From Agarivorans sp. TSD2052 (lineage in GTDB: Bacteria > Pseudomonadota > Gammaproteobacteria > Enterobacterales > Celerinatantimonadaceae), in contig NZ_CP096670.1 of the NCBI RefSeq assembly GCF_023238625.1, positions 1,849,501 through 1,913,500 of the forward strand: 64,000 bases of DNA, given 5' to 3'. Both the position numbers and the translations under genes were made by a program. Under the pieces are notes generated by a model. It ran no database searches. It was not told the origin of the DNA and saw only the letters and a list, made by a program, of their open reading frames with translations. Shown in pieces: positions 49,918 through 59,918 of this stretch (position 1 is its first letter; each line of letters starts with the position of its first letter).

Positions 49918-49988
49918 TTGCAAATTGTTTAATGCGGCATGAGAGACGAAGGTTCTGGTCACATTTAGCGCCGCCAAACAATTTGCAA
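49918..49988 (+). other. long hairpin directly 5' of the guanidine aptamer
   Basis: Perfect 13-bp inverted repeat TTGCAAATTGTTT / AAACAATTTGCAA enclosing a second stem GCGGC / GCCGC and a 31-base apical region that includes GAC...GTC. It ends two bases before the aptamer. No T-run follows, so it is not a terminator. Function unknown. Confidence 0.75.
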
Positions 49989-49990
49989 TA

Positions 49991-50080
49991 GACATCTAGG
50001 GTTCCGACTGTGCGCAGTGACTGGACCGAGAGTTGTCAACCTCAACGAGGTTACACGGAGGGATAAAAGCCCGGGAGATG
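49991..50080 (+). promoter_or_regulatory. guanidine-I riboswitch (ykkC) aptamer
   Basis: The conserved ykkC segments appear in order and spacing: CTAGGGTTCCG (49996-50006), a CTGTGCGCAG helix, CTGGACCGAGAG (50021-50032), a hairpin AACCTC-AAC-GAGGTT, then CACGGAGGGATAAAAGCC and CGGGAGA (50054-50078). This class binds guanidinium and usually turns genes on. The downstream genes are a guanidine-degradation set, which supports the call. Confidence 0.93.
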
Positions 50081-50108
50081 ACAGTACCTAAGTCTCTCAT
50101 GCTTTTTA
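50074..50108 (+). terminator. predicted riboswitch expression-platform terminator
   Basis: GGAGA-T-GAC (50074-50082) can pair with GTCTCTC (50092-50098), followed by ATGCTTTTTATTTT. Its 5' arm is the conserved GGGAGA 3' end of the aptamer, so ligand-bound aptamer and terminator are mutually exclusive, the ON-switch arrangement. Pairing was done by eye. Confidence 0.6.
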
Positions 50109-50138
50109 TTTTAAGTGCATAACCACAATGAGGTGAAC

Positions 50139-57400: not shown

Positions 57401-58059
57401 GGACCCCCGAAAATGCAGTGGGCATTGGTGGTGCTTATCTATGCGTTTACGGTATGGAAGGCCCAGGCGGGTATCAATTTGTGGGTCGCACCTTGCAAAT
57501 GTGGAATCGCTACCGACAAACCGAAGAATTTAGCAAACCTTGGTTATTACGCTTTTTTGACCAGATAAAATTTTACCCCGTCAGCGCAGATGAATTAAAA
57601 CAAATTCGCAAAGACTTCCCGCGTGGTGATTACCCCTTAAAAATTGAAAACACCGAATTTAGTCTACATGGTTACCAGCAACTACTTGAGCAGCAACAAG
57701 ACAGCATTCAGCAGTTTAAACAAGTGCAGCAACAGGCCTTTGAAGCCGAGCGTCAACGTTGGGAAGAAACCGGCCAAGCGCACTTTGCCAGTGAAGTGGT
57801 CGAGCAAACGCAACACCAAGAAAACCAGCTAACAGACAACCAAGTGGCTATCGATAGCCATGTAGCCGGTAATCTTTGGCAAGTGATGGTAGAGCCCGGC
57901 CAGCAAGTAAAAAGTGGCCAAGTAGTCGCGGTATTAGAAGCAATGAAAATGGAACTAGAGGTATTGGCGCCGCAGAGTGGCACCATAACCCAACTTAACT
58001 TAAGCCAAGGCTCGCAGGTTCAAGCTGGGCAACGTTTAATGGTCATGGAGGCTTTATAA
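54415..58059 (+). CDS. biotin-dependent guanidine (urea-type) carboxylase
   Basis: The 1214-residue enzyme has: biotin carboxylase at about 1-450 ([12 protein letters not shown] near 160, [37 protein letters not shown]); a KipA/AHS2-like carboxyltransferase half at about 465-780 ([37 protein letters not shown]); a KipI/AHS1-like half at about 800-1090 ([50 protein letters not shown]); and a biotinyl domain with EAMKM near 1180. ATG 54415 ([17 protein letters not shown]) follows AGGTGA. Sequence class is urea carboxylase, but a guanidine riboswitch and the DUF1989 pair point to guanidine as substrate. One-base overlap with the next gene. Confidence 0.92.
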   Translation: [1214 protein letters not shown]

Positions 58060-59873
58060 TGGAACAAACCTATACAATCGAGCAGCTACGCGCAGCGTAT
58101 ACTGAACAACAATTTAGCCCCGCTGACTACCTCAAGCAGCAGCTTAGTATGGCCAGAGCCGACAGTCATAACTGTTGGTTATCGTTAATTAGCGACAGCC
58201 AGCTAGACAGCTATTTAGCGGGCTTAGCCAGTCAAGATATCAACGACTTACCCTTATATGGTGTGCCGTTTGCGGTAAAAGACAATATTGATGTTGCCGG
58301 TTTAAATACGACGGCAGGCTGTAAAGAATATAGCTACCAACCAGAGCAAAATGCCTTCGTGGTTGACATGTTGATCAAGGCGGGGGCAGTGCCTTTAGGT
58401 AAAACTAACCTTGACCAATTTGCTACCGGTTTATCGGGCACTCGCAGCCCTTGGGGGCCAGTTACCAATAGCTTTGACCCCGACTATATCTCTGGTGGAT
58501 CTAGTTCAGGTAGTGCTGTATCCGTTGCCACTGGGCAAGTTTGTTTCTCATTAGGTACCGATACTGCCGGTTCGGGGCGCGTACCCGCGGCACTCAATAA
58601 TATCTTAGGCTTAAAGGCAACGAAGGGTTTGGTGAGCTGTAGTGGGGTGGTGCCTGCTTGCAAAAGTCTAGATTGCGTGACCATTTTTGCTCACACTAGC
58701 GATGACCTAAATGTGCTGTTAGAGGTAGCGGGGCAATACGACAGCAGTGATTGTTATGCTCGCCAAAACCGCGATAGCAATCATGCAGGTTTGTACCTAG
58801 CCGCTAAAGAGTTAACCGGCTACAAAATAGCAGTGCCACAAGCCGAGCAATTAGAGTTTTTTGGTAACCAAGATACCCAACATTTATTTGCTGAGAGCTT
58901 AAATAAACTGCAACAATTAGGCGCAGAGCTGGTAGAAATTGATTTTGAACCGTTTTTAACGGCTGCCAAGCTGCTCTATGAAGGCCCTTGGGTTGCCGAG
59001 CGTTATGCGGCGATTGAATCATTTATGGAGCAAGACCCCAGCCGTTGCCTACCGGTTATTCAAACCATTATTGGTGGAGCGAAAAGCGTGACCGGGGTAG
59101 AGGCCTTTAAGGCCTTTTATAAGCTGCAAGCCTATAAAAATATTTGTGACCCTATTGTTGAACAGTTTGATGCCATTGTTACACCGACAGCGGGTAGCAC
59201 TTACACCATTGCGCAACTAAACGCCGACCCTATTCAGCTCAATTCGAATATGGGGTATTACACTAACTTTATGAACTTATTAGATTACAGCGCCATCTCT
59301 GTACCTGCTGGCTTTCAAGCCTCAGGTTTACCTTTTGGTATCACCTTGTTTAGCCAAGCTTATGCAGACCGTAAATTATTGAGCATGGCGGCCTTAATTC
59401 AACAAAGCAATGGTTATGCCTTAGGTGCTACTAAGCAAGCGTTGCCGCAGTTAAAAGCGGTAGATACAACGCAATATACTCGCCAAGATAGCCTGCAAAT
59501 AGTGGTGTGTGGTGCGCACCTCTCAGGTTTAGCGTTAAACCATCAATTATTAGAACGAGAAGCAACATTAATTAAGACCAGCACTACCTCTAAAAATTAT
59601 CGGTTTTATGCACTCGCAGGTGGGCCACCGGCTAGGCCTGGCTTGATCCGTGATGAAGAGAATGGCGAACAAATCGCGGTTGAAGTATGGAGTATACCCA
59701 CTAAACATGTGGGCAGTTTTTTACAAGGTATCCCTCAGCCCCTTGGGCTTGGCAAAGTAGAGCTTGCCGATGGCCAATGGCTAACCAGTTTTATCTGTGA
59801 AGGCTATGCCATTAGCGGTGCCACAGATATTACCCATTTGGCCAGTTGGCGGGCATATCTAGACAGCCTGTAA
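58059..59873 (+). CDS. atzF: allophanate hydrolase
   Basis: The 604-residue amidase-signature enzyme hydrolyses allophanate to ammonia and CO2. The catalytic Ser-cisSer-Lys triad is visible as Lys74 (FAVKDN), Ser148 (GGSSSGS) and nucleophile Ser172 (GTDTAGSGR). The amidase domain spans about 1-460; the C-terminal domain (about 475-604: VVCGAHLSGLALNHQLLEREA, FYALAGGPPARPGL) is the AtzF/DUR1 allophanate hydrolase C-domain. Last step of the guanidine or urea amidolyase route. Start overlaps the carboxylase stop by one base. Confidence 0.95.
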   Translation: MEQTYTIEQLRAAYTEQQFSPADYLKQQLSMARADSHNCWLSLISDSQLDSYLAGLASQDINDLPLYGVPFAVKDNIDVAGLNTTAGCKEYSYQPEQNAFVVDMLIKAGAVPLGKTNLDQFATGLSGTRSPWGPVTNSFDPDYISGGSSSGSAVSVATGQVCFSLGTDTAGSGRVPAALNNILGLKATKGLVSCSGVVPACKSLDCVTIFAHTSDDLNVLLEVAGQYDSSDCYARQNRDSNHAGLYLAAKELTGYKIAVPQAEQLEFFGNQDTQHLFAESLNKLQQLGAELVEIDFEPFLTAAKLLYEGPWVAERYAAIESFMEQDPSRCLPVIQTIIGGAKSVTGVEAFKAFYKLQAYKNICDPIVEQFDAIVTPTAGSTYTIAQLNADPIQLNSNMGYYTNFMNLLDYSAISVPAGFQASGLPFGITLFSQAYADRKLLSMAALIQQSNGYALGATKQALPQLKAVDTTQYTRQDSLQIVVCGAHLSGLALNHQLLEREATLIKTSTTSKNYRFYALAGGPPARPGLIRDEENGEQIAVEVWSIPTKHVGSFLQGIPQPLGLGKVELADGQWLTSFICEGYAISGATDITHLASWRAYLDSL

Positions 59874-59892
59874 GTTACTTGCTACTCACCCT

Positions 59893-59918
59893 AAAAAACC
59901 AGCCTTAGCTGGTTTTTT
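59893..59918. terminator. bidirectional terminator ending the guanidine operon
   Basis: AAAAAACCAGC / GCTGGTTTTTT with a CTTA loop, between atzF and the convergent LysE gene. Confidence 0.92.

Follow-up and report, generated by a model that had tools for sequence, protein, structure and literature searches.

Comparison with described guanidine operons

The closest described relative of the system reported here is the guanidine operon of Vreelandella boliviensis (PMC12508155), in which, according to the accessible part of that account, a guanidine-I riboswitch in the 5' leader precedes genes for an ATP-binding cassette (ABC) importer and for CgdA and CgdB, a guanidine-II riboswitch lies between cgdB and the carboxylase gene gca, and AtzF is encoded as well. 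Its two aptamers bind guanidine in vitro, with binding constants reported, and the operon is guanidine-induced. In another published operon, the importer and deiminase genes likewise follow guanidine-I, and guanidine-II precedes those for carboxylase and AtzF; growth with guanidine as the only source of nitrogen is reported in that case, and the available text holds no promoter information. Here, we analyzed a window of 64,000 nucleotides (nt) from Agarivorans sp. TSD2052 (positions 1,849,501 to 1,913,500 of the forward strand of contig NZ_CP096670.1), which holds a seven-gene operon of the same layout, and guanidine-I in front with guanidine-II inside the operon is an arrangement already published for several genera. 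The operon nonetheless differs from that of V. boliviensis, which carries mgdH and mgdL between gca and atzF where the window operon has neither, and whose account, in its accessible part, contains no sigma54 and no leader helix of the kind proposed below. Judged from its sequence, the locus as a whole is probably a guanidine-assimilation operon under layered control, with the following parts.

~49808 to ~59919, + strand: whole operon from control region to terminator, seven genes
49985..50079, + strand: guanidine-I riboswitch aptamer (RF00442, 86.1 bits against a gathering score of 63)
50139..51221, + strand: periplasmic binding protein of a NitT/TauT-type importer (TIGR03427)
51231..52058, + strand: ABC permease (PF00528)
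52055..52840, + strand: ABC ATPase (PF00005)
52853..53599, + strand: DUF1989 protein, CgdA-like (TIGR03425 type, score above cut-off)
53654..54295, + strand: DUF1989 protein, CgdB-like (TIGR03424, 331.7 against a cut-off of 284.7)
54348..54397, + strand: guanidine-II (mini-ykkC) riboswitch aptamer (RF01068, 37.4 bits against a gathering score of 32)
54415..58059, + strand: predicted guanidine carboxylase, gca (TIGR02712 "urea carboxylase", 1826.8 against a cut-off of 1303.85; D719 and D968)
58059..59873, + strand: allophanate hydrolase of the AtzF type, C-terminal domain included (PF01425, PF21986; TIGR02713, 768.1 against a cut-off of 511.05)
59892..59919, + strand: intrinsic operon terminator (hairpin within 59892-59922, -14.1 kcal/mol, z -5.2)

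An earlier sequence-only reading of this stretch had described one unit of a guanidine-I aptamer, an ABC importer, two DUF1989 proteins, a carboxylase and AtzF, ended by a strong terminator. The profile, aptamer and fold results bear this composition out, the aptamer passing the ykkC covariance search that had been named as a possible refutation. The short overlaps it reported are also in place, ATGA at 52055-52058 between permease and ATPase and TAATG at 58059 between carboxylase and AtzF. The strength of the terminator holds as well, given that none of 200 shuffles matched the stability of its hairpin; the hairpin appears only on folding of 59892-59922 and was not listed by a terminator scan of the region. 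While the operon and its assignment to guanidine stand, that reading did not include guanidine-II, the promoter of sigma54/NtrC type or the putative leader helix, and its extent, from 49918 onward, falls short of a control region that starts farther upstream, near 49808. Both DUF1989 proteins score above the cut-offs of the two NCBIfam models, and the names CgdA (TIGR03425 model) and CgdB (TIGR03424 model) are our own presumed assignment, membership of the CgdA and CgdB clades of the family being putative. The DUF1989 family is also what we take COG3665 to be.

Precedents for the two regulatory features come from other systems. In the available text of a computed sigma54 regulon, 102 COG3665 genes from alpha-, beta- and gammaproteobacteria are given as sigma54-regulated, 59% being annotated "urea carboxylase" (PMC12316311); that text does not use the word guanidine and has the word riboswitch only in its reference list, so that it draws no link to a guanidine switch. 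For phosphoribosyl pyrophosphate (PRPP) switches of the ykkC fold, a helix formed by the aptamer ends is described, and the guanidine aptamer is said, in the accessible part of the same paper, to lack such a helix (PMC6031431). The window helix is built differently from that of the PRPP switch, since its 5' strand sits some 40 nt ahead of the aptamer, within the leader, and its 3' strand is the 3' half of a terminator-like hairpin. Within the open literature searched, we found no description of a sigma54/NtrC promoter for guanidine riboswitches, nor of a leader helix with the terminator strand, and either could exist in papers outside it. The kind of operon is already known. For guanidine switches, neither the promoter link nor the leader helix has, as far as searched, apparently been described, with the caveat for the novelty of the promoter link that the computed regulon already lists a related gene family.

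A sigma54-type promoter and NtrC-like sites precede most guanidine-I sites examined

The region upstream of the guanidine-I aptamer contains two motifs that suggest control by nitrogen supply.

49808..49824, + strand: NtrC-like site TGCGCTAAATTGGTGCG, matching TGCACC-N5-GGTGCA at 9 of 12 letters, 99 nt before the -24 element
49907..49922, + strand: sigma54-type -24/-12 promoter TGGCATAGCCATTGCA, 10 of 11 consensus letters, GG and GC correctly spaced, transcript predicted to begin near 49933

The general sigma54 consensus served for scoring, and TGCACC-N5-GGTGCA is the NtrC consensus. The pattern TGGCAYN5TTGCW occurs 19 times genome-wide on both strands, which puts a chance match per 160 nt of one strand at about 3 in 10,000. 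For comparison across genomes, we collected 73 guanidine-I sites, comprising 26 from the window's order (the window included; 26 of 197 genomes have guanidine-I), 37 from 28 genomes of a class sample of 369 genomes, and 10 found by regular expression in 80 named loci; many of these sites come from related species and are thus not 73 independent events. A sigma54-type site, defined as GG and GC in place with at least 9 of 11 letters no more than 180 nt upstream of guanidine-I, was present at 23/26 order, 33/37 class and 9/10 named sites, or 65/73 in total. The reversed strand of the same windows gave 0/73, and dinucleotide shuffles gave means of 0.82 (order), 1.6 (class) and 0.26 (named). The element is missing at L025, where a near-match has its GC altered, and at L042, L043, L148, one of the two sites of L141, L161, L167 and L077. 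These observations are further strengthened by NtrC-like sites (9 or more of 12 letters matching, no more than 200 nt upstream of the -24 element), which accompany 20/23 order sites (1.9 expected), 25/32 class sites (4.0 expected, one site having been dropped for a short contig) and 5/9 named sites (0.42 expected). Genes for both NtrC (768 bits, cut-off 558.6) and RpoN (520.4, cut-off 277.35) are present in the genome itself. Transcription is thus very likely to start near 49933 under sigma54, and NtrC is the probable activator of the operon, both on the evidence of motifs and their recurrence.

Ten sites (L144, L154, L157, L158, L159, L162, L063, L064, L072 and L076) have their sigma54 element only 20-32 nt upstream of guanidine-I, so that the transcript would start at the aptamer and be leaderless. 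Three of these loci (L154, L157 and L162) carry two guanidine-I sites on opposite strands about 0.4-0.6 kb apart, forming a divergent pair. In the window, a perfect 14-nt inverted repeat (49917-49930 and 49976-49989) spans the -12 element and the aptamer start and looks confined to the window among six sequences of the same genus; it was set aside as an RNA fold, as a start near 49933 would exclude its folding in the transcript. A recurrent ACAATTTG stands directly 5' of the aptamer in several families, at 49976-49985 in the window and in the final 8-10 nt ahead of the aptamer in L020, L022, L025, L033, L034, L035, L038, L039 and L040, and may belong to an extended fold.

A proposed leader helix would compete with the terminator-like hairpin

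The first nucleotides of the predicted transcript are complementary to the strand that precedes the U-rich run downstream of the aptamer.

49936..49947, + strand: leader strand of a long-range helix, complementary to 50092-50103
50066..50105, + strand: local terminator-like hairpin in which the aptamer tail pairs with the strand ahead of the U-rich run (pairs enforced in the fold; pairing also in relatives)
50092..50103, + strand: strand that can join either the local hairpin or the leader helix; a U-rich run comes next, to ~50112

The leader helix and the local hairpin are mutually exclusive because both need the strand 50092-50103. Among the folds of the window, in a calculation confined to secondary structure free of ligand and tertiary contacts, the leader-helix fold is the most stable at -55.4 kcal/mol, against -45.5 kcal/mol for the local terminator. 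Leader complementarity reached p <= 0.013 against 300 mononucleotide shuffles at 18 of the 23 order sites having a sigma54 site, and at 20/26 once the three sites that lack one receive an assumed start. A stricter view was provided by a swapped-pair control, in which each leader was paired with downstream strands from other groups; it covered 55/73 sites, those with no sigma54 site, a leader shorter than 18 nt or insufficient sequence being left out. The true leader pair ranked in the best 5% at 18/23 order, 8/27 class and 3/5 named sites. Pairs of the leader helix are changed on both sides at 5/16 positions in 10 sequences from two families, and in L036 and L037 the helix is made of entirely different letters, ACAAGCCAAGA with TCTTGGCTTGT. 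Complementarity and covariation together make it reasonably likely that the helix is real. Its role in locking the ON state is a guess, and a doubtful one.

Diagnostic residues point to guanidine as the substrate

Guanidine carboxylases are distinguished from urea carboxylases by Asp at Kluyveromyces lactis (K. lactis) position 1330, besides Asp at position 1584 (PMC11410670), and a review repeats the rule of Asp for guanidine and Asn for urea (PMC12186494), as far as the accessible parts of both sources go. The sequence-only reading had proposed an alignment at this pocket as one check; when run, it gave the guanidine-type Asp at both diagnostic sites and no urea-type Asn. Specifically, D719 of the window enzyme faces N1330 of yeast urea amidolyase in the alignment with 5i8i chain A, and D968 corresponds to the K. 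lactis 1584 position, both positions being counted by hand on the printed yeast alignment. The two residues are invariant in 13 aligned relatives. Among fetched loci where one alignment piece spans both diagnostic positions, Asp occupies the 719 site in 49/50 carboxylases from loci with a known guanidine-I site and in 6/9 from loci without one. The single exception in the former group is L147 (genome G389), whose guanidine-I-linked carboxylase has the urea-type Asn there. In addition, the genome gave no match to a small multidrug resistance (SMR) exporter of the Gdx type, which fits guanidine use rather than export. On the strength of these residues and the gene content, the operon almost certainly serves guanidine catabolism.

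Two guanidine aptamers within one operon

Each of the two aptamer families has one match in the genome (4,616,181 bases, one contig), and both matches fall inside the operon. The guanidine-II aptamer, with both GGGACGACCC hairpins present, lies downstream of the second DUF1989 gene and ahead of the carboxylase gene, just 5' of the likely ribosome-binding site. Its position in the cgdB-gca gap places importer and deiminase behind switch I, with carboxylase and AtzF additionally behind switch II. The combination recurs: in 20 of the 26 guanidine-I genomes of the order, the window's included, the two aptamer classes lie 4-7 kb from each other on a single contig and the same strand, and motif search found the guanidine-II pattern in two further genomes (G064 and G098). 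In the class sample, this arrangement occurs in 9/28 guanidine-I genomes besides the window's own, plus G389 below threshold. The searches over many genomes used stricter filters and lost weak matches. Within the family of the window's genome, 10 of the 12 collected genomes carry guanidine-I, all 10 being already in the sample. At six loci (L026, L061, L141, L142, L145 and L152), the guanidine-I site is followed by a different ABC importer, with only ~27-43% identity to the window's proteins.

Alternative explanations

Transcription from a sigma70 promoter, with the sigma54 motif present by chance, is very unlikely: a scan for sigma70-like promoters gave 12 sites in the region, where shuffles averaged 17.3, and none of them was on the + strand ahead of the operon; in addition, the sigma54 motif recurs at 65/73 sites against 0/73 on the reversed strand. 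Several results count against the later steps of the proposed control. The leader helix is weak outside the order, where only 8/27 class sites fall in the best 5%; at 10 of the 65 sites with a sigma54 element, the predicted start lies at the aptamer, and geometry leaves no leader helix; and only 26/55 leader-type sites have a four-T run within 70 nt of the aptamer, which means that the terminator step as such cannot hold for many relatives. A helix placed immediately ahead of a U-run might also act as a terminator. For guanidine-II, a candidate OFF pairing to the ribosome-binding site did not outperform shuffles (p 0.34 for the window), and the openness of the ribosome-binding site barely shifts, from 0.65 to 0.68, when both hairpins are enforced. 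In place of an ON-lock, the leader complementarity could belong to a terminator whose loop contains the aptamer, be a means of mRNA 5'-end protection only, or be the by-product of a duplicated terminator strand, which together we regard as less likely than not. The helix does adjoin the U-run, both in the window and in several relatives; in families f1 and f11, the aptamer tail (GGGAGA) is similar to the leader strand (GAGAGA); and the helix tends to be missing where the local hairpin is strong and a T-run is present (e.g., L142 and L143). All of this would suit these readings. However, the pairing persists while the letters change (L036 and L037) and under two-sided changes, which indicates that the leader strand is not a mere copy, and a helix that terminated by closing with guanidine bound would defeat the switch.

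Concerning the substrate, the family models would describe a urea operon with urea carboxylase, allophanate hydrolase and a urea importer (TIGR02712, TIGR03427, TIGR03424 and TIGR03425). This possibility is scarcely credible and was rejected on the diagnostic-residue alignment, which gives D rather than N at the K. lactis 1330 position; the two guanidine aptamers inside the operon also oppose it. Two facts can be held against guanidine, namely the urea name of the binding-protein model TIGR03427 and a urease alpha gene elsewhere in the genome, the latter also speaking against a urea operon. The same model name leaves some room for an importer whose main substrate is urea or a guanidine relative such as methylguanidine rather than guanidine itself. 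At E 1e-5, no protein of solved structure matched the sequence of the binding protein (50139-51221), and the guanidine-II aptamer of V. boliviensis binds methylguanidine as well as guanidine (PMC12508155). Such a substrate is nevertheless unlikely; for methylguanidine, the demethylation genes that Vreelandella carries between carboxylase and AtzF are absent in the window, where those two genes overlap. Finally, the operon could clear guanidine as a stressor, with nitrogen as a by-product. Guanidine-dependent switches elsewhere also control exporters, according to the accessible part of a review (PMC12186494), and in a genome without an SMR exporter match degradation may be the sole defence. 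We consider detoxification improbable all the same, given that the operon includes an importer and that its sigma54 and NtrC-like sites point toward nitrogen control.

Proposed model of layered control

In the model that we favour, guanidine assimilation under layered control, nitrogen limitation would be reported by an enhancer protein, most likely NtrC, and sigma54 polymerase would then start near 49933, as motifs and their recurrence suggest. With guanidine absent, the aptamer tail would base-pair to the strand ahead of the U-run, halting transcription, as established for the riboswitch family, while bound guanidine would keep the tail in the aptamer and let polymerase pass the terminator. 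In the read-through RNA, the freed strand may pair with the first leader nucleotides, holding the terminator open and tying down the mRNA 5' end, a step suggested by complementarity and covariation only. Guanidine-II would gate translation from the carboxylase onward, in keeping with the known action of its family. Of the gene products, the ABC importer would bring guanidine into the cell, the biotin carboxylase would convert it to carboxyguanidine, the two DUF1989 proteins (CgdA/CgdB) would deiminate carboxyguanidine to allophanate, and AtzF would hydrolyse allophanate to ammonia and CO2. Tighter control of the ATP-using steps is one possible answer to why one ligand should have two switches.

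Such wiring, if true, would mean that guanidine use requires nitrogen limitation and guanidine jointly. The control of this operon bears on the question of whether guanidine is mainly a nutrient or a stressor for bacteria: if sigma54 and NtrC fire guanidine-I operons, cells would treat guanidine as a second-choice nitrogen source. A promoter, a transcriptional switch and a translational switch stacked for one small ligand would give a clear natural example of layered gating, and a leader helix, should it prove real, would add an extra part to the expression platform of a well-studied riboswitch. We advance only tentatively, as somewhat short of likely, the broader generalization that proteobacterial guanidine-I switches as a rule lie behind sigma54/NtrC promoters and that, in many, a helix between the 5' end and the terminator strand holds the switch ON and closes off the start of the mRNA.

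Neighbouring features of the window

Beyond the operon, a LysE-family exporter gene (59938-60615, - strand) adjoins the operon terminator, and the gene for the glutamate synthase large subunit, a nitrogen-assimilation gene, lies at 32371-37017, about 13 kb upstream of the operon. Between these, at 42335-43180, a set of three tRNA genes occurs twice in tandem with equal scores.

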